Assembly: GCF_007860125.1 (NCBI RefSeq)
Contig: NZ_SJPW01000003.1
Coordinates: 644,764-708,763, forward strand
DNA from: Rubripirellula tenax
GTDB lineage: Bacteria > Planctomycetota > Planctomycetia > Pirellulales > Pirellulaceae
Reading direction: 5' to 3'
Length of the DNA: 64,000 nt
Below, in pieces: positions 8,519 through 60,384 of this stretch (position 1 is its first letter; each line of letters begins with the position of its first letter). Position numbers and translations under genes: made by a program. A model generated the notes under the pieces. The model searched no databases. It was not told where the DNA came from and saw nothing but the letters and a program-made list of their open reading frames with translations.

Positions 8519-10519
8519 ATGCGACGATTCAGCTGCGGCCCGGCGTCTTTCATACCCGTGTTTTGCGAAATAGCGACATTCATCCTGGTGTCTTTCGGTC
8601 TGCTTTCTGTCTTGATCGAATCGGTATCGATGGCCGGCGATCCGGCAACCCAAGCCAACGTTGAAACGATGCTACTTGAGCCGTTCGATATGGTCGATCA
8701 TCGAGGTCGACACTGGACCCAGGATGACTTCCACGATCAATCGATCTTAGTCGTCGCATTTCTGGGAACCGAGTGCCCACTCGCCAAACTGTATTCCGTT
8801 CGATTGAACGAGGTTGTCGAACAGTATGGCGATCGCGGCGTCGCGGTAGTGGGTGTGCTGAGCAACCGCCAAGATTCCTTGGCGGAAATCGGCGCAATGG
8901 TAACTCGCCAATCCATCGAATTCCCGATGGTCAAAGATGGCGGCAATCGATTCGCCGATCAGTTGGGCGCTGAACGCACTCCCGAAATTTTCGTCTTCGA
9001 TGCCAAACGAACACTTCGTTACCGAGGTCGCGTCGATGATCAGTACGGCATCGGCTATGTGCGTGACGAGCCCGGCCGACAAGATCTGAAAATCGCCCTG
9101 GACGAATTGTTGACCGGAAAATCCGTTTCGCTAGCTCGCACCAGCGCGATCGGATGCATCATTGGTCGCACCAAAACCGTCGATGAATCGAACGAGATCA
9201 CCTACGGCAGCCACGTCGCTAAAATTTTGAATCAACACTGTGTCCAGTGTCATCGCGAAGGCGAAATCGCTCCGTTCGGACTGACCGATCCGAACGAAGT
9301 CGTCGGTTGGGCAGACATGATTTCCGAAGTGGTTCAAGACGGACGAATGCCACCTTGGCACGCCGTGGACGCGCACGGCACGTTTGCGAACGACCGTCGA
9401 ATGACGGACGAAGACAAAGCAACCCTTTCCACATGGGCCGAGGCGGGAGCACCGCTGGGGTCCCTCGATGACTTGCCCGCACTGGCACCCAAAGTCGCGG
9501 GTTGGCAATTGCCCCGCGAGCCAGATCGAGTGATCAACATCAGCCCCGAACCGATTCCGATCCCCGCCGAGGGCACCGTACGGTACCAGTATTTTTCAGT
9601 CGACCCCGGATTCGAATCCGATGTTTGGTTGGAAGCCGCTGAATTGCGCCCGGGAAATCGCGAAGTCGTACACCACATCTTGGCGTTCGCAGTCCCCAAG
9701 GGCCAACGGCAAGGCTTGAACGGCGCTCGAGGATTCTTGGTCGGCTACGTGCCCGGCGCAAGGCTTGAACTTGCACCGGAGGGACACGCTAAGCGAATTC
9801 CGGCCGGCAGCGAATTGATTTTTCAAGTTCACTACACGCCGACCGGATCGCCGCAAACCGACCAAAGCCAATTGGGAATTTTGGTCATCGAAGCGGACAA
9901 GGTCACGCACGAAATTGTCACCAACAGCGCGCTGAACACTTCGTTTCGAATCCCGCCGCATGATTCTGATTTCCGCGTGACGGCGTCAAGCCCGCCGCTG
10001 CCCGGCGATGCGACGCTGCTGTCGTTCAGCCCCCACATGCACGTGCGTGGAAAAGCTTATCGCTATGAATTGAAAAGTTCGTCCGACAGTCGTGAAACGA
10101 TTCTGGAGATCCCGGCTTACGATTTCAATTGGCAGACGACGTACGTTTTGAGTCAGCCGCGCAAGGTGAACGCAGGCGATCGACTCTTCTGTACCGCAAC
10201 GTTCGACAACAGCGAAGACAATCTCAATAATCCAGACCCCAAGGCCGAAGTCCGATGGGGTGACCAGACCTGGGACGAGATGATGATCGGTTACTACCAC
10301 TACAGCGTGCCGTTGGCGAAGGAAGCCACGCCGGAGACACCCGAGACGATCGAGCAAAAAATTCGTCGCGCGGTCACGCTGCAGAAGTTCGACGAACTTG
10401 ATACCGACGGCGATGAAAAGTTGACTCGAAGCGAAACACCACGAAAACTGCACGCCGTCTTTGATCAGCTCGATACAAACGTCGACGGCATTCTCACGCG
10501 ATCCGAAGCCAGTCGCTAG
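8519..10519 (+). CDS. Secreted redoxin / c-type haem / PHM-like / EF-hand multidomain protein
   Basis: A 666-residue exported protein with a hydrophobic leader (about residues 15-38). Residues 45-190 form a thioredoxin-fold AhpC/TSA-like redoxin (DFHDQSILVVAFLGTECPLA) with a single Cys in the usual active-site area. A haem-attachment motif CVQCH lies at residues 241-245. Residues 340-600 resemble the copper type II ascorbate-dependent monooxygenase fold, with paired histidines (VVHHIL, His385/386) and SPHMH (His506, His508) in copper-ligand-like positions. Two EF-hand calcium loops close the protein (DTDGDEKLTRSE and DTNVDGILTRSE). Homologous planctomycete proteins are common, but the substrate is unknown. 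It appears to be a single-gene unit. Confidence 0.8.
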   Translation: MRRFSCGPASFIPVFCEIATFILVSFGLLSVLIESVSMAGDPATQANVETMLLEPFDMVDHRGRHWTQDDFHDQSILVVAFLGTECPLAKLYSVRLNEVVEQYGDRGVAVVGVLSNRQDSLAEIGAMVTRQSIEFPMVKDGGNRFADQLGAERTPEIFVFDAKRTLRYRGRVDDQYGIGYVRDEPGRQDLKIALDELLTGKSVSLARTSAIGCIIGRTKTVDESNEITYGSHVAKILNQHCVQCHREGEIAPFGLTDPNEVVGWADMISEVVQDGRMPPWHAVDAHGTFANDRRMTDEDKATLSTWAEAGAPLGSLDDLPALAPKVAGWQLPREPDRVINISPEPIPIPAEGTVRYQYFSVDPGFESDVWLEAAELRPGNREVVHHILAFAVPKGQRQGLNGARGFLVGYVPGARLELAPEGHAKRIPAGSELIFQVHYTPTGSPQTDQSQLGILVIEADKVTHEIVTNSALNTSFRIPPHDSDFRVTASSPPLPGDATLLSFSPHMHVRGKAYRYELKSSSDSRETILEIPAYDFNWQTTYVLSQPRKVNAGDRLFCTATFDNSEDNLNNPDPKAEVRWGDQTWDEMMIGYYHYSVPLAKEATPETPETIEQKIRRAVTLQKFDELDTDGDEKLTRSETPRKLHAVFDQLDTNVDGILTRSEASR

Positions 10520-10761: not shown

Positions 10762-11158
10762 GAATGGAACCGGGAAGGGTGAGAGTGAGAAATATTTGCC
10801 TTGTTGCGAACGCGTCTCAATAAGGAAAGCCCGTTTCCGTATTTTTGTCAACATTGCTTGTGAAAAGTTTTTCCCCGCAATTTGCCACACGAAATCCATG
10901 CAAGCGAGCAGAGGCTTGGAAGCGTCGACTCAAAAGGGACTTTTCGACGAAGAAGCTCTCGGCTACCCTGACGCTTGTTGAGACCGATTCTCAACAACTT
11001 TCTCAGGTAGCAAGCCAGGCCGAGCGGGTCGCGGGACGTTTCCAGCGTCTTCGATTTTCACCGCCTTCGGACCCAGCGAGCAAGACGGAAGGACTGCACC
11101 CCGTTGCATTGGGCGACGCGTGGGCGTTTTCAAGACTTGTTTCGCAGAGGTCATCACC
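10762..11158. other. Divergent intergenic region upstream of hemP and the PEP-CTERM/DUF1559 gene
   Basis: About 400 bases with no convincing gene. The hemP-proximal part is AT-richer and holds the Fur-like palindrome; the rest probably carries the rightward promoter. Short open frames here have no recognisable sequence. Confidence 0.5.
10804..10820. promoter_or_regulatory. Possible Fur-like operator between hemP and the 11.2-15.1 kb operon
   Basis: The 17-base stretch TTGCGAACGCGTCTCAA is an imperfect inverted repeat with outer arms TTGnGA and TCnCAA, reminiscent of TTGAGA-type Fur half sites. It lies 43 bases upstream of the hemP start, where an iron repressor would be expected. The match is weak and its function is only inferred. 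Confidence 0.25.
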
Positions 11159-12901
11159 ATGGCTTGGTGTCGTCGTTTGAGTCGACTGTTTTCTGTCGCA
11201 TTTGGATTCGCGGCCTTGGTTGCAAACGCAGCCATCTTTGTGCCGGGGCAGTCCGTTGCGGACGTGTCGGGCCAAGTGTTCCCGTGGTCCACCGGATCCC
11301 CCCACAGCACGTTCGCGTTCTGGGATCGCTTTGACGGTTTTCCAGGTGGGACGGCGCCCGGGTTCCTGCCGGCGGGAACGTCCCCGAGCGCCAACGCTAG
11401 CTTCGCCAATGGCGGAATGCCCAGCTCGTTGACGTTCAATTCCAACCAATCGCTGCCATCCAGTGGGAACGCCTACGGCGGACTGTTTGGACCGGGCGAC
11501 GACTCGACATTCTTGACCGACGCCTTCGCAACGGTACGATCGGGCACGTCGGGTGGTGGGTTCACTCGCATCGTGGCCCAGTTTGAAACGTTGGGTTCCG
11601 AACTGGACTATTCGTCGATCTTGCTTAGCCCGTCCGCGATGACCGCGGGGACGATCGCCCCCGGTTTCGCCAAGGAAACCGGACGCATTGCCTTGGGCGG
11701 AACATTCGGTGGCGAAGGCGTCAGCTATCTGGCGATCTGGGATTTGAACGCTTCGCAAGCCGAATATCGTTTCGACTTTCAAGCACAGTCCGCCAACCTT
11801 TCGTTGGACAAGTTTCGCATCGACACGTTCACCCAAAGCACGCCGTTCATCACGCCATCGGCCATTCCCGAACCGAGCAGTTTGGCAGTGTTGGGCGCGA
11901 TCGCATGCGGCATCGGGTTGCGGCGACGAAAGACGAACCGTCGAACAACTTCAACCAAGGATCATTCACGTCGCGGATTCACTTTGATCGAACTGTCGGT
12001 CGTGATCGCAATCATCGGCATCCTGATCGGTTTGCTGTTGCCCGGTGTCCAATCGGCGCGAGAAGCGGCGCGGCGAATGTCATGCGGCAACAACCTAAAA
12101 CAAATCGGCTTGGCGATGCACAACTACAACGACGTGAACCGTCGGCTACCGCCCAGCGCCATCGGCATTCGAGTCGGCGGAACAAATCGCCAACCGGTTC
12201 AACGGGCAGGTCTGACCGCGTTTGTGTCGATCTTGCCTTTCGTCGAACAGTCATCGTTGTTCGAACAGTTCGACTTCAATGCCGATGCTTGGTCGCCACA
12301 AAACGAAGCGTCGGCCAAGCGTACACCCCCGGTGTACCTGTGTCCGTCGATGTCATTACCCGATAGCGGCGGAACGCCCGATGGCTATTCCAGTTATGCG
12401 TTGTCAACGGGAACCAAAAAGTATCGCAACCAAATCCACGACGGTGCCATCGTCGATGCGATGAATGTTTTTCGTGGCGAGCGAGTCGTCGCGGGGTTGC
12501 CCGATTCGTCGTCTTGGTTGCCGTGGGTCACGGTCGACGACATTTCCAATGCCGACGGGACAACCAACACGTTGTTGGTCGGCGAGTTTGGCGTCCAAAT
12601 TCGCGAAACGTCGTCGCTGCCATTCCCCTTTCCGGGATCGGGCGGTGAAAGTGCCGGCAAGTGGGCCAACAGCTATCCGTACCATTCGACGGCATCGACC
12701 TTCGGCAGGTTCAATGCAAAAGAGATCTCGCTGTTCGACATTCCGTCTTATGAATCGTTTCGTGGTCCTCATGTCGGCGGCGTCCAATTCGTATTGAGCG
12801 ACGGAAGCGTTCGCTTCTTGACCGAGTCCGTCGACGCCGTGATCTTGCAACGATTGACCGCCCGCAACGACGGCGAAGTCATTGATCAGGAGCCGTGGTA
12901 A
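11159..12901 (+). CDS. Fused PEP-CTERM protein and DUF1559 pseudopilin-like protein in one ORF
   Basis: One uninterrupted 580-codon frame starting at ATG 11159 (an upstream GTG at 11120 is less likely, because the signal peptide [16 protein letters not shown] follows the ATG). Residues 40-230 are a small secreted beta-rich domain. At residues 235-262 there is a complete PEP-CTERM signal: [12 protein letters not shown], a hydrophobic stretch and the basic end LRRRKTNRR. Without a stop, the frame continues into a class III-type prepilin motif [20 protein letters not shown] (Gly273 before the cleavage point), the DUF1559 signature [20 protein letters not shown] and the C-terminal [17 protein letters not shown] (H-x9-DG). 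Either a genuine polyprotein or an internal start (a TTG precedes RRRKTN) is possible. The stop overlaps the next start by one base. Confidence 0.85.
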
Positions 12902-13389
12902 TGCACCTGAACGCTCGTTTCAACATGCCGATTTGGATCGCTCTTATCGGTGGAATTGGGATATGCCTGACCGGGTGCAATCCACCGCCAAGCCCGACGT
13001 TGACGGCCAGTGGGACCGTTGTCGTGCGCGGAAAACCATTGTCGGGTGCCGTCATCACGCTGGAACCCATGCGAGAAACCAAGGGCCCCAACGCATCGGT
13101 TCCAATCTTCGATGGTCGCTTCGAAGTTCCCGCCGATGCCGGATTGCATGGCGGAATGTATCGAGTTCGCATCGCCATGATTCCCGCAGAAATCCGTAAG
13201 GCGATTCCGGCCGACCAAGCCAAATCGATGCCGCCCGACGACGCGATGATCGATCCCGCGTTTGACGCAAGCAGCCAACTGACTTGCGAGTTGAAACCCG
13301 ATCATGCAAACGCGTTGGCGTTTGCCGTCGAGTTCCTTTCGTCCGATCAAAACCATTCACCCAATCAAACCCATTCGAGTTCGCTATGA
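12901..13389 (+). CDS. Small lipoprotein with carboxypeptidase-regulatory-like beta domain
   Basis: A 162-residue protein starting at an ATG that overlaps the upstream TAA by one base and sits behind an AGGAG-like stretch, indicating translational coupling. The leader ends in a lipobox (ICLTGC), so the mature protein should be lipid-anchored at Cys. The following ASGTVVVRGKPLSGAVITLEP is typical of Ig-like/carboxypeptidase-regulatory domains of planctomycete lipoproteins that sit next to DUF1559 genes. No catalytic residues are evident. Its stop overlaps the next gene (ATGA). Confidence 0.8.
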   Translation: MHLNARFNMPIWIALIGGIGICLTGCNPPPSPTLTASGTVVVRGKPLSGAVITLEPMRETKGPNASVPIFDGRFEVPADAGLHGGMYRVRIAMIPAEIRKAIPADQAKSMPPDDAMIDPAFDASSQLTCELKPDHANALAFAVEFLSSDQNHSPNQTHSSSL

Positions 13390-15095
13390 AAAACACTTTC
13401 CATCAAATCCGACTTCTGTCATTGGCGGCTTCCATTTCAACGATGTCTTTCGTCGCCTCATCGGCCGCCTTTGCTCACATGCCATGGCTTGCCACCGACG
13501 ACGAAGGGCACGCGGTGATGTGGTTTGGCGAGTCGCCCGAGGATCGAACGTATCACATGCCCGAAAAACTTGCCGCGATCCAATTGACCCATGCCAAGTC
13601 CGCCGTCACCACCGAGCGCGTCGACAACGATTCGTTGGTCGGAATCCGTAGCACCGACCAGATCAACGCCGTCGACGAAATCGCCGGCACCGCAACGTAC
13701 GGAATTTATCACGGAACGAAGTTGACCTATCACGTCGAACATCTGCCGCAAACAGACATCAGCCAATGGCCCACCGAACCACGGGCGGGTGCACCGTTTC
13801 AATCGATCATCACGGCGTCGCCCGCCGGCGGTATCAGCGTCACAATTTTGATCAATGGCAAACCCGCCAAAGACGTCGACGTCAAACTGTATTGCGAAGC
13901 CGGTCACGAAGAAGCTTCGGCCACCACCGACATCGCGGGCATCGTGACGTTCAAAAAATCGGCGGTCGAACCGGGACTAAACGCAATCGCGGTTGGTCTG
14001 ACCGATGACACGGCCAGCGGAACGCTCGATGGCCAGGGCTACGGAAGCACGACGGATTACCTGACCGCAACGTTTCGGGTTCCCGGTGGCGCGCATGACA
14101 AACGAATGGATGATTCCGAACCGGCGAAAAAACCATCGCGTCCCGCTGTCGACCCCAGCAGCGGCGCGTCGATCGTGCCCTCGGGATTGCCAGCGTTGCC
14201 GGAAGAATTGACCAGCTTTGGCGCCGCGATGGTTGGCACGAAAATCTATCTTTACGGCGGCCACACCGGCGACGCTCACTCGTATTCCGTTGACGAACAA
14301 TCCGATCGGTTGTGGTGCTTGGACACCGCAAACGGCGAATCGGGAACTTGGACGAAGCTTTCGAATGGACCGGCGCTCCAGGGTCTCGGCTTGGTCGCCC
14401 ATGGCGACCGAGTCATTCGCATCGGCGGATTCACCGCGGTCAACGCGATCGGTGAAGAACACGATCTACGATCACAGAACGCGGTTGCCGCCTACGACAC
14501 CAACACGCACCTGTGGACAGAACTTCCGTCGTTGCCCGAAGCTCGTTCATCGCTGGACGCAGCCGTCCTTGGCGACACCATTTATGTGGTCGGCGGTTGG
14601 AAACTTAACGGCGAAAGCGACGATAGCGAATGGCACAGTACCGCGTGGTCGCTGGACTTGGGCGACACCGACGCGACCTGGCAACCGATCGCCGCACCCA
14701 CTTTCCAAAGACGCGCGATCAGCGCGGCGGCCCACGACGGGAAATTGTTTGTGATCGGCGGAATGACTTCCGATGGACAACCGACCACGCGAGTCGACGT
14801 CTTCGATCCGACAACCAACGCGTGGACCGAAGGACCATCACTGCCTGGTTCGGGAATGTCAGGCTTTGGTTCGACATCCTTCGCGACCGGTGGCGGACTC
14901 TACGTCAGCACGATGGACGGTTTCGTGCATCGAATCGGCGCCGACGGCCAAGGTTGGTCAACGATCGCCAAGTCTGATCCGCCGAGGTTTTTTCATCGAA
15001 TGTTGCCCACGAACGATCGCCAGTTGTTGATCATGGGCGGCGTTAACATGGAAATCGGCAAGTGCACTCAAATCGACCGAGTTGAGTTGCCTTAG
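13386..15095 (+). CDS. Exported DUF4198-like / kelch beta-propeller protein
   Basis: A 569-residue protein starting at ATG 13386, overlapping the upstream TGA. The signal peptide ends SSAAFA at residue 30, so the mature protein would begin with His31 (HMPWLATDDEGHAVMWFGE). An N-terminal His is characteristic of DUF4198/NikM-like periplasmic domains proposed to bind metals. Residues 31-235 form this domain, including an Ig-like GGISVTILINGKPAKDVDVK segment. From about residue 280 come kelch-type blades marked by IYLYGGHTG, RVIRIGGF, IYVVGGWK, LFVIGGMT and LLIMGGVN. The gene ends the operon. Metal binding and any partner of the propeller are inferred. Confidence 0.75.
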   Translation: MKNTFHQIRLLSLAASISTMSFVASSAAFAHMPWLATDDEGHAVMWFGESPEDRTYHMPEKLAAIQLTHAKSAVTTERVDNDSLVGIRSTDQINAVDEIAGTATYGIYHGTKLTYHVEHLPQTDISQWPTEPRAGAPFQSIITASPAGGISVTILINGKPAKDVDVKLYCEAGHEEASATTDIAGIVTFKKSAVEPGLNAIAVGLTDDTASGTLDGQGYGSTTDYLTATFRVPGGAHDKRMDDSEPAKKPSRPAVDPSSGASIVPSGLPALPEELTSFGAAMVGTKIYLYGGHTGDAHSYSVDEQSDRLWCLDTANGESGTWTKLSNGPALQGLGLVAHGDRVIRIGGFTAVNAIGEEHDLRSQNAVAAYDTNTHLWTELPSLPEARSSLDAAVLGDTIYVVGGWKLNGESDDSEWHSTAWSLDLGDTDATWQPIAAPTFQRRAISAAAHDGKLFVIGGMTSDGQPTTRVDVFDPTTNAWTEGPSLPGSGMSGFGSTSFATGGGLYVSTMDGFVHRIGADGQGWSTIAKSDPPRFFHRMLPTNDRQLLIMGGVNMEIGKCTQIDRVELP

Positions 15096-38440: not shown

Positions 38441-41371
38441 TTAGGCTCGCTGGCGTCTGACCCGGAACAGAGTGACAAACGCAATCAGGATCGCCAGGAA
38501 TTGGCCTGGTTCTGGCACCGCGGTGATCGCGAAGCTTGCCGAGAATCCATCGGATGCTCGACTCGATGACCAGTCCACTTGCATTTGTAGTTTCTCACCA
38601 TTGCCCGCAAGCGAACCGAGCGACAATGGATTGTCCGTGAAGAATGACTCGGCTGTGGTGAGATCCGTGAACGTCCACGTCTCATTGAACTGAAGGGCGC
38701 TAATGGAAAGCATCAGGCTTTCGAAGCCGTTTCCGGTGGACGAGAAATCGTAAAAACCGATCAGTGCGTCTCGCCCGGTAAAGGTTCCGTCAGTCAATTC
38801 AAGCTCGAGAAGCGTTGAGAATGTGTGAACTCCAGAACCGTCCGTCGGATAGCCGCCACCAAATTCACCGATCCCAAGAACGTCATTGACATTGATTGCG
38901 TTTTGGATGTTGGGTTGGGTTGCCAGCTCTGCCGTGACATCAAAGGTTGATGGTGAAAACGTTAACAGCGAGAACGCATTTGCACCGGCCACGTCGGCGG
39001 CGGACCACGGGGTGCCATCGACCGCGGAATAGCTTTCGACGCGGCTTTGGCTGCCCACGTTTGCCGTCACAGTGTTGGTCACGCGAACCGAATCCAGTGT
39101 TGGGATACCGAATGTGGTTCCGGCCGAACCGCTGGTGGCGGTCGCGTCGCCATTGATGCCGTCGGCAATCGAAACAGCACGCGACACCCTGCCTTCGGCG
39201 ACGGCGATCGACGTGGCCGTCCCGCCCGTCGAAATACTGGTTGCAAATGCGTCGGCGGCACCTGAGCGACTGGACAGAACGTCGCCGGATTCGGAAACGG
39301 AATAGCCGGCGATGGATTGTGCGTTGGACGATGCGACTTGAGTGGCTCCGTCGGTCTGTGCAAACGAGGTTGCGCTCGCGTTGCCTCCCAAACCACCTGC
39401 TTGCGGTTGGCCGTCGGTCGATCCACCGTCACCGCCATAAGCCTGTGTCAAGGAAGTCGCGTTCATCGTCTGCGAGGTGCTTGAGCCAATCGCTTGCGAA
39501 TCGGCACCATTCGAACCGGAGGCACCGCCCATGCCGTCACCGCCGTAGCCCGCCACCGAGTAGACTTCCACCGATGCCGTGCCGACGTTTCGCAACGTCG
39601 CCTCGGAGCTTGCACTCCCGGCGCTGCCGCCCTGACCGATCAAGCCATCTCGATCACCTCCGTAACCGCCGTACGATTCGCTAATCAGCGCCGAGTTGAG
39701 ATTTGTGTTGTTTGCATTCAGCCTGGACAGCGCCGCTCCACCATTGCCAGCGGCACCGTCTTGCGAACTGCCTCCCGTCCCGGCTTCAACGACTTGAAGA
39801 ACCGTACTGTCCCCCAAGGCTTGATTGCTAATCGCGGTCGCCGCATTGTCGATTGAAATCGATGCGCCGTTTCCGCCGGTACCAGATCCTTGAGCCGAGC
39901 CACCTGATCCGGCGAGATAAAACGCTTCGACGCTCGCGGTTCCGCTGGTCGTCGTCGCGGAAATGAGACCTTCCGCCGTTCCGCCGTCGCCTCCCGAACC
40001 TTCCGCTGCCCCAAAGACTTCCCCACCGCCTCCGGCTTGGATGTTGGAAAACGCGAAGGCGCCCGTCGCGCCGGTGACCGTCACATGGGACGAGATGTTT
40101 CCGCCGTCGCCACCGCGACCGGTGCCCGAATTTTTGTACCCTCCGTCGCCAGCCTGCGCGGAAACGAATGCGTCGACGTCATTGGTCGACGACATCAGTG
40201 TCAAATCGCCAACCGCATTGCCACCATCACCGGACGACGCGCCCCCATATCCGAAACCACCATCCCCACCGCGAAATTCATTGTCAGCCACAATTTCACC
40301 GGAGTTCGAAAAACTGCCGATCGATACCACGTCACCGCCCGAACCTGCGACTCCTGTTGCATTGTCTCGATTGCCGCCTCCGCCAGCTTCGGTCCGCAAC
40401 GTGGCGCGAAGGAATGCGTTGTCGCTGGTTGCGGTCAGCTGGTTGGTCGCATCGCCGGCAATGCCCATCGTTCCGGATTCTGCCGAACCAGAGAATCCAC
40501 CGTTGGCTCCTTGGTAGAGGGACGTGTTGCCCGTGACCGCCGAAGTTGCAACGATCGCGTCGATCACCGTGGCGTCACCACCGCTTCCCGAGGCCCCGTT
40601 CCCTAATGCGTTGCCACCGTCGCCTCCGCTGACGACGACCGATGCATCGGCTTCGGTGACACCCGTCGCGATGGTGTTGGCAACGGTCGCGGAGGCACTG
40701 CCGCCATTGCCGCCGGACGCTCCGGCGGCGATTGCATCGCCTCCGTTCCCACCCGTCAACAACGCATCGGCATTTGCCTCATTGTTAGTTGACGTGGCGT
40801 TGATGCCAGGGGCCAAGATCGCTGCTGACGCGCCGTCACCGCCATTTCCGGGATTCCCGTCGGTCGATGCTGAACCACCCGTTCCGCCGACTCCACCGAG
40901 GCCCCCATCGCCGCCGAAGGCGTTCAAGAAGGAGGTCACCACACCGGGGCCGCTCGTATCAACGGAACCCTCCGCGTTCCCGCCATCGCCTCCGCGCCCC
41001 CCGTTTCCCCCAGCAAAATTGCTGGACACAGCATTGCCGCCGGCGCCGCCGGTCCCGCCCGTGCCACCCGTCACCGCCAATCGATTTTCGCTATCCGCTG
41101 TCGCAAGTGTGCTGCTAATTGTTTCTCCGGTAGCACCGTCTTCGCCGGCTTGGCCAGGATCTTGGTTGGCGCCCGCAGCACCATTGATTCCCGTCGTCCC
41201 GAGCTCGATCACGACGGCCGCCGGGGATCGCTCCGCCAACCCGAAGCACGTCGCGGTCAGGACGACCAATGTCAAAGGACACCGGTTCCATGACCAAACA
41301 GTCCGACGGAGGCCGCGTTTCTTTCCGGAGGACAGGGGTGAAAACACACTTGGAATGATTGATGGATGCAC
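38441..41371 (-). CDS. Glycine-rich repetitive PEP-CTERM surface protein
   Basis: A 976-residue secreted protein. A long basic n-region and hydrophobic core (LTLVVLTATCFGLAERSPAA) form the signal peptide. Residues 55-720 are low-complexity, with dozens of imperfect GGxGG/GGDGG blocks such as GGTGGTGGAGGNAVSS, GGNGGRGGDGGNAEG and ASGGNGGSASATV, alternating with Ser/Ala/Thr-rich, Asn-containing strands. The last 250 residues form a conventional beta domain ending in AITAVPEPGQFLAILIAFVT and RVRRQRA, a complete PEP-CTERM sorting signal. This implies export, exosortase processing and probably a cell-surface or matrix location. The antisense strand has long Pro-rich open frames purely because of the glycine codons. 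Confidence 0.88.
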   Translation of the reverse strand: MHPSIIPSVFSPLSSGKKRGLRRTVWSWNRCPLTLVVLTATCFGLAERSPAAVVIELGTTGINGAAGANQDPGQAGEDGATGETISSTLATADSENRLAVTGGTGGTGGAGGNAVSSNFAGGNGGRGGDGGNAEGSVDTSGPGVVTSFLNAFGGDGGLGGVGGTGGSASTDGNPGNGGDGASAAILAPGINATSTNNEANADALLTGGNGGDAIAAGASGGNGGSASATVANTIATGVTEADASVVVSGGDGGNALGNGASGSGGDATVIDAIVATSAVTGNTSLYQGANGGFSGSAESGTMGIAGDATNQLTATSDNAFLRATLRTEAGGGGNRDNATGVAGSGGDVVSIGSFSNSGEIVADNEFRGGDGGFGYGGASSGDGGNAVGDLTLMSSTNDVDAFVSAQAGDGGYKNSGTGRGGDGGNISSHVTVTGATGAFAFSNIQAGGGGEVFGAAEGSGGDGGTAEGLISATTTSGTASVEAFYLAGSGGSAQGSGTGGNGASISIDNAATAISNQALGDSTVLQVVEAGTGGSSQDGAAGNGGAALSRLNANNTNLNSALISESYGGYGGDRDGLIGQGGSAGSASSEATLRNVGTASVEVYSVAGYGGDGMGGASGSNGADSQAIGSSTSQTMNATSLTQAYGGDGGSTDGQPQAGGLGGNASATSFAQTDGATQVASSNAQSIAGYSVSESGDVLSSRSGAADAFATSISTGGTATSIAVAEGRVSRAVSIADGINGDATATSGSAGTTFGIPTLDSVRVTNTVTANVGSQSRVESYSAVDGTPWSAADVAGANAFSLLTFSPSTFDVTAELATQPNIQNAINVNDVLGIGEFGGGYPTDGSGVHTFSTLLELELTDGTFTGRDALIGFYDFSSTGNGFESLMLSISALQFNETWTFTDLTTAESFFTDNPLSLGSLAGNGEKLQMQVDWSSSRASDGFSASFAITAVPEPGQFLAILIAFVTLFRVRRQRA

Positions 41372-59160: not shown

Positions 59161-60384
59161 ATGAATCGATCTCAACAATCTCGGACGGGCTTCACGCTCG
59201 TCGAACTCCTGGTGGTTATCGCCATCATCGGAGTCCTCGTTGGTCTGCTACTGCCAGCGGTACAAGCCGCTCGCGAAGCAGCTCGTCGCATGAGTTGCAG
59301 CAACAACTTCAAGCAAATCGGCCTCGGTATCCATAACTACCACTCGGCCTACAAGCAAATGCCGATCCAGAAAAGCGGCACCGGGCTGTCGATGGGTGCC
59401 GGAAACTGGTGGGACGGATCCAACGTCACCAACCAAGGTCAATTGAGCTGGTTGGTCGGCCTGACCCCATTCATCGAGCAGCAAGCACTTTGGGAGCAAA
59501 TTTCGAACCCGAACGGTTATGAATTGGTCGGTGGCGTTCAGCAGCTTCGCACTCCTCCGTGGCCAGCCATGGGACCCAAGCCAGAGAATACCGCTTACAT
59601 CCCAGCGATGACCGAAGTGCCTAGCTTCCGATGCCCTTCGGATCCAGGAACCGGACTGCCAGCGATGGGCCGAACTAACTACGGCTGCTGCCTCGGTGAC
59701 TCGTTCTCGAAGGCTGAAGCCGGTGCACGAAACGCTCAGTTGGTTGTCAACAACGGCGATGCCGAATGGACTCGCGCCGGTCAACGCGGTGCCTTCGTTG
59801 TGCATCAAAAGATGGCTTTCCGTGACATCCTTGACGGTCTGTCCAATACCATCATCGCCGGTGAAATGAACACCGACTTGGGTGACCGTGACATCACGAC
59901 GACAGCCACTTACAACAAGAACGACGCCACAACAGGTGTCAAGGCCGTGCCTTCGGTGTGCCGAACGGACGGTTCCGTCGATCCGCTCCGACCTCGTTTC
60001 TGGGGTCCAACAACACCGACCTTCACCGCCGACCGTGGTGCAAACACAGGTCGCGGATATCGTTGGATGTCGGGCGAGCACATCTACACGGCGATGATGA
60101 CTATCCTGCCGCCTAACACGACACTTTGTTATCAAGGCGATTGGCCCGGACAAGAAGGTATCGTACCACCGAGCAGCCGGCACCAAGGTGGCTGTCACGT
60201 CCTGATGGGCGACGGTGCGATCAAGTTTGTTACCGATTCGATCGAAGCTGGTGATCAAAACCGCAAAATGGTCGAGTTCAACAATGTTGCACCCGCGCCA
60301 GTTCCTGGTGCCGCAAGCCCCTACGGGCTTTGGGGTTCACTCGGAACTCGTGCTAATAAAGAGGTCATCCAAGAAGAACTCTAA
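59161..60384 (+). CDS. DUF1559 pseudopilin-like protein
   Basis: A 407-residue planctomycete-specific protein. ATG 59161 is preferred over GTG 59152 because the typical short leader MNRSQQSRTGFTLVELLVVI follows it. The prepilin Gly-Phe cleavage site, the helix and the DUF1559 signature [20 protein letters not shown] are intact, as is the terminal H-x9-DG motif (HQGGCHVLMGDGAIKF). The paralogue at 11-13 kb is fused to a PEP-CTERM domain; this one is of standard design. A strong terminator lies 18 bases after its stop, before a tiny lipoprotein gene. Confidence 0.93.
   Translation: MNRSQQSRTGFTLVELLVVIAIIGVLVGLLLPAVQAAREAARRMSCSNNFKQIGLGIHNYHSAYKQMPIQKSGTGLSMGAGNWWDGSNVTNQGQLSWLVGLTPFIEQQALWEQISNPNGYELVGGVQQLRTPPWPAMGPKPENTAYIPAMTEVPSFRCPSDPGTGLPAMGRTNYGCCLGDSFSKAEAGARNAQLVVNNGDAEWTRAGQRGAFVVHQKMAFRDILDGLSNTIIAGEMNTDLGDRDITTTATYNKNDATTGVKAVPSVCRTDGSVDPLRPRFWGPTTPTFTADRGANTGRGYRWMSGEHIYTAMMTILPPNTTLCYQGDWPGQEGIVPPSSRHQGGCHVLMGDGAIKFVTDSIEAGDQNRKMVEFNNVAPAPVPGAASPYGLWGSLGTRANKEVIQEEL

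Follow-up and report, generated by a model that had tools for sequence, protein, structure and literature searches.

Introduction

By the accepted view, PEP-CTERM signals lie at the C-terminus of a protein and prepilin signals at the N-terminus. Proteins sorted by exosortases (EpsH, XrtU) begin with a signal peptide and carry a PEP triad, a hydrophobic stretch and a basic end. Passages of the founding study of PEP-CTERM give a median of three extra residues after the signal; in the same passages, matches with long tails are suspected to be non-functional and may vary more (Haft et al. 2006, PMC1569441). The prepilin-type proteins of planctomycetes combine a prepilin motif at their start with a DUF1559 domain and an H-X9-DG end. 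Rhodopirellula baltica has 74 DUF1559 genes (PMC2754498).

We analyzed a stretch of 64,000 nucleotides from Rubripirellula tenax (NCBI RefSeq assembly GCF_007860125.1, contig NZ_SJPW01000003.1, positions 644,764 to 708,763 of the forward strand), called the window below. One of its reading frames has the parts of both kinds of protein. It resembles the exosortase-sorted proteins in its signal-peptide-like start, PEP triad, hydrophobic stretch and basic end, and exosortases are present in the genome, but the signal is internal, with 322 residues beyond it. It also resembles the planctomycete prepilin-type proteins in having a complete prepilin motif, a DUF1559 domain, an H-X9-DG end and a G or A at position -1 as in its paralogues, but here the prepilin leader comes only after a secreted domain and a second membrane helix instead of opening the protein. 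A literature search found no paper joining PEP-CTERM with DUF1559, nor one combining prepilin, PEP-CTERM, exosortase and fusion.

Results

The frame is a single open reading frame of 580 amino acids and a stop on the plus strand of the window, at 11159-12901. Its main start has a Shine-Dalgarno (SD) energy of -6.5. By eye, the first 24 residues form a probable Sec signal peptide (11159-11230). They are followed by a secreted domain that could not be assigned to a known family (residues 25-235; 11231-11863) and by the PEP-CTERM signal (residues 236-258; 11864-11932). The signal was detected with TIGR02595 at 18.3 bits in the whole protein and 22.7 bits as a fragment (cut-off 16), and Pfam PF07589 scored it at 18.0 bits, below its cut-off of 20.7. 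A basic linker, with 9 K/R and 1 D/E counted from residue 255, takes up the remaining residues 259-273 (11933-11977) before the predicted prepilin cut between G273 and F274. The prepilin cleavage/methylation motif (11966-12040) was matched by PF07963 (32.4 bits, residues 270-294) and TIGR02532 (30 bits, residues 271-293). The DUF1559 domain (PF07596, 155.4 bits, residues 298-560; 12050-12838) is full length, spanning positions 1-267 of the 268 in the profile, and contains the H-X9-DG end (TIGR04294, 28.8 bits against a cut-off of 19, residues 534-555; 12758-12823).

The preliminary description of this DNA had reported a PEP-CTERM signal, a prepilin motif and a complete DUF1559 protein without a stop between them, and the profile matches bear this out. 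It had placed the two signals about 30 codons apart. This does not hold for the gap between the end of the PEP-CTERM match and the start of the prepilin match, which is about 12 residues; it comes nearer to the 37 codons that separate the PEP motif from the residue at the prepilin cut. Neither signal is where it is expected. The PEP-CTERM signal is not at the C-terminus, and the prepilin motif begins only at residue 270, although internal initiation of translation could give it an N-terminal position.

The secreted domain had no Pfam match at E up to 1 and no NCBIfam family above cut-off. A six-row profile of this domain searched against the sequences of solved structures in the PDB also gave no match at E up to 1. 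A structure prediction from three rows (the window, L038 and L039) had a mean pLDDT of 29.4 and was set aside.

To place the internal signal among the others in this genome, tail lengths were read for 66 of the 69 PEP-CTERM places that score above cut-off on their own; the remaining three were left out. The median tail is 5.5 residues, and in 64 of the 66 a stop lies at most 17 residues away. The two exceptions are the fused frame and a place at C2:222325. Since eight other genomes share the frame and nearly all PEP-CTERM tails here end so soon, the arrangement is more than chance. The frame at C2:222325 (L177 1683-3461; G000:C2:221182-222960) lacks a stop after its motif and extends into an overlapping long frame of another register, which is BatA-like by eye; no domain was noticed in its own frame beyond PEP-CTERM. 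Another PEP-CTERM signal lies on the minus strand of the window, at 38447-38518.

Searching the genome with the query protein returned 64 matching stretches, nearly all to the DUF1559 half; one of them lies elsewhere in the window, at 59170-59559 (L008). Thirty of these loci were taken, and at the 29 others no PEP-CTERM frame ending within 1500 nt upstream was found with a simple motif scan, which is blind to fused frames and misses the window's own.

Both enzyme families are present. Four places matched the exosortase family (PF09721) above the Pfam cut-off, and three were scanned further: two have an XrtU domain above cut-off and the third exceeds the general exosortase cut-off. Two loci of the prepilin-peptidase family (Peptidase_A24) are above the Pfam cut-off, and neither protein had an NCBIfam match at E 0.001. 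Alanine at position -1 of the prepilin motif is usual in this genome (8 of 30 distinct motifs read) and also occurs in some of the fused relatives.

The stop codon was then followed through close relatives. A profile of the first domain (E 1e-12, 10 candidates scored per genome) was searched against 241 genomes of the family and matched 19, all of whose loci were read. The fusion is unbroken in nine. Another nine have adjacent separate genes (G216, G003, G002, G215, G214, G203, G069, G070 and G096), with the first half divided between two frames in G215. In the last, G205, no DUF1559 gene adjoins the first-domain gene. The fused copies come from two genera, g1 (the genome of the window, G000, with G004 and G001) and g60 (G206, G207, G208, G209, G211 and G212), and their first halves are as little as 48% identical. 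Their PEP and prepilin motifs are 35-47 codons (105-141 nt) apart, without a stop. The separate pairs encode the same proteins in the same order, with the lipoprotein and kelch motifs of the fused locus downstream too where scanned, but their motifs are 163-253 nt apart, with a stop between and in mixed frames. In the close pair G069 and G070, this spacing differs by one base. In G003, another PEP-CTERM gene lies directly upstream of a prepilin-type gene, with stops between them (L098; G003:C306:9328-9558). Gene pairs of this kind may have arisen more than once.

A junction profile matched the same nine of the 241 family genomes, each time over its full length and without a stop (E 1e-16, 23 candidates scored per genome). 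Across the phylum, the genome of the window was the only match among 392 sampled (E 1e-18, 14 candidates scored per genome), a sample that evidently lacks the other eight fused genomes. The recent loss of a stop codon considered in the preliminary description is ruled out by an unbroken frame in nine genomes of two genera. Relatives also do not consistently show a stop between the domains, although nine other genomes have separate frames. The proposed link between exosortase and pseudopilin routes in planctomycetes would apply to a small clade and not across the planctomycetes.

Conservation differs sharply between the signals and the linker. P-E-P and F-T-L-x-E-L show no variation among the nine fused copies, and both motifs exceed their cut-offs in all nine fragments (TIGR02595, 22.7-32.5; TIGR02532, 24.4-34.3), the PEP-CTERM of the window being the weakest of the nine. 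The C-terminal PEP-CTERM signals of seven of the nine unfused relatives scored 14.9-28.6, one falling below cut-off, and these values are to be read against fused scores from short fragments, which score higher (18.3 whole against 22.7 as a fragment in the window). Because of this, we claim only that the internal signal appears not to have decayed, and not that it has improved. The nine fused signals do not look like the long-tailed matches suspected of being non-functional.

Among the six g60 genomes, differences per site at codon positions 1, 2 and 3 are 0.06, 0.04 and 0.34 in the secreted domain and 0.08, 0.03 and 0.31 in the DUF1559 domain; in the linker they are 0.36, 0.33 and 0.42, and 53% of its residues differ. 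The linker is nevertheless 29 codons long and stop-free in all six, despite base differences of 17-46%. It has 8-14 K/R and 0-1 D/E in the nine fused proteins, and 9-14 K/R in the six from g60. Judged from these comparisons, two constrained signals flank a nearly freely drifting linker that stays in frame and strongly basic. The absence of stops was rejected as proof of selection on the linker, as it arose by chance in 25% of cases in a substitution-only simulation.

We infer that the fusion is the derived state, since the most distant orthologues (G096, G069 and G070) are separate; the trees were rooted for drawing only. In the tree of the DUF1559 half (19 rows, including L039), the nine fused copies and the unfused G216 form one group (94/91), with G216 nested inside it beside G000, G004 and G001 (92/83), a pattern that either a single fusion and a subsequent split or two fusions would give. 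The trees of the first half and of the joined halves disagree with this, mainly over G001. They contain 15 of the 19 genomes, G070, G096, G205 and G215 being left out for reasons of extraction or broken frames. G001 groups with the unfused G214 and G203 in the first-half tree (88/73), and a clade of the nine is rejected on the joined halves (p-AU 0.021). Identity along the protein suggests that part of the first half of G001 (L078) is closer to G214 and G203 than to the remaining fused proteins, which hints that the secreted domain has recombined internally. Taken together, the trees fit either a single fusion, followed by a split in G216 and by recombination in G001, or more than one fusion.

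The fused frame is followed by two genes on the same strand. The first encodes a small putative lipoprotein (12901-13389), whose start codon, ATG, shares a base with the stop codon before it (TAATG) and which had no Pfam or NCBIfam match. The second encodes a kelch-repeat protein (13386-15095; PF01344, 105.1 bits). The lipoprotein motif was found downstream in 10 of the 13 orthologous loci scanned and the kelch motif in all 13.

Upstream, at 10978-10994, is the palindrome TTGAGA-N5-TCTCAA, a possible operator. It is exact in 10 of the 16 orthologous upstream regions read (the nine fused genomes and G216), where it sits about 154-192 nt before the start, and its five-base arms are present in 11. 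It is one base off in G003 and looser in G002, G214 and G203, and was not seen in G069 and G070. The palindrome occurs at one place in this genome; by our estimate chance alone would supply about half a copy in 8 Mb, so its weight rests on its conservation. It seems to resemble Fur-family boxes, and a metal-linked surface function for the operon is our guess. As a possible model for the operon we considered ZepA of Anabaena, a PEP-CTERM protein that handles zinc (PMC10957091). Further upstream, one frame at 8519-10519 contains AhpC-TSA and copper type II monooxygenase C-terminal domains above the Pfam cut-offs, with weaker haem-binding and EF-hand matches below them.

Discussion

Two neighboring genes, one for a secreted PEP-CTERM protein and the next for a DUF1559 pseudopilin-like protein, appear to have merged into one frame in some genomes of two Pirellulaceae genera. 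We hold with moderate confidence that the best reading of the product is a natural polyprotein with predicted cuts by exosortase and prepilin peptidase. Topology rules place the domain after a signal peptide outside, make the PEP helix and its basic end a stop to transfer, and have the prepilin helix begin inside. By these rules, the chain would be exported by Sec until the PEP-CTERM helix halted export and left the basic linker in the cytoplasm, and the prepilin helix would lead the chain out again. The PEP motif would then lie outside, on the side of the exosortase, and the G273-F274 bond inside, on the side of the prepilin peptidase. Both cuts together would yield a surface protein and a DUF1559 pseudopilin and discard a short piece of helix and linker. 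More tentatively, we propose that one chain is in this way split on opposite faces of the inner membrane by two unrelated sorting proteases, releasing the two products together in equal amounts.

The double cut suggested in the preliminary description fits the anatomy of the protein, and cutting stays a prediction. It is favored by the unbroken fusion in nine genomes, by the retention of both signals in every one of them while the linker drifts, and by the presence of exosortase and Peptidase_A24 families in the genome. Several points weigh against it. Long-tailed PEP-CTERM matches are suspected to be non-functional in the passages of Haft et al. (2006; PMC1569441), and the signal in the window is the weakest of the nine and below the Pfam cut-off. 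The prepilin-peptidase-like proteins did not match NCBIfam, the stop-free linker alone is weak support in view of the simulation, and candidate internal starts are present.

Alternatively, the chain may remain a membrane hairpin without any cut, or be cut by one enzyme and not by the other; in either case the secreted domain would keep its tie to the pseudopilin, and the two would be displayed together. The persistence of the fused state in nine genomes is what would be expected if the tie itself were useful. However, nothing would then preserve a full PEP-CTERM signal, yet the triad is invariant and the score above cut-off in all nine; a membrane anchor alone explains the hydrophobic and basic parts but not the PEP triad. 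We consider this reading unlikely, though it is the strongest of the alternatives.

Less likely again is additional translation from a start close to where the PEP-CTERM helix ends, which would yield a DUF1559 protein with a basic leader and leave the long chain as a by-product or second form. Such starts could coexist with polyprotein cutting or with a hairpin. In eight of the nine fused genes, G207 being the one without, an ATG, GTG or TTG lies no more than two codons from the arginine run. It is a GTG with an SD energy of -5.0 to -5.6 in G206, G212, G209, G211 and G208, and an ATG at -5.0 in G004, near the -5.4 of the true-looking start in the unfused G002; other candidates higher in the helix reach -5.9. 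The start codon varies, however, and is weaker elsewhere, with a TTG at -1.7 in the window and a GTG at -3.0 in G001. Helices of this kind often contain valine, leucine and methionine, and an ATG occurs at that spot in the unfused G203 and G216 as well, so the internal start codons may be no more than a result of helix composition. No stop terminates the long chain, whose main start has an SD energy of -5.8 to -6.5 in all nine fused genes. Of the nine unfused DUF1559 genes, eight have starts at -5.4 to -11.2 (five at -8.2 to -9.3 and one at -11.2), and G215 is at -0.7. A single chain is the simplest product.

It is very improbable that the frame is an artefact without any role, due to a stop codon lost recently or to faulty assembly of this genome. 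The frame at C2:222325 also overruns its PEP-CTERM motif, into an overlapping out-of-frame gene, but relatives refute the idea: nine distinct genome records contain the same fusion, with first halves as little as 48% identical, and the linker is of equal length in six genomes despite their base differences.

The fusion suggests that DUF1559 proteins can work together with exosortase-sorted surface proteins. With both signals back to back in one frame, it is a natural reporter for exosortase and prepilin peptidase processing in planctomycetes, and because related species have this gene pair in fused and in separate form, processing could be tested on one protein. If the polyprotein is indeed split by both proteases, the exosortase and type IV filament routes would be directly coupled.
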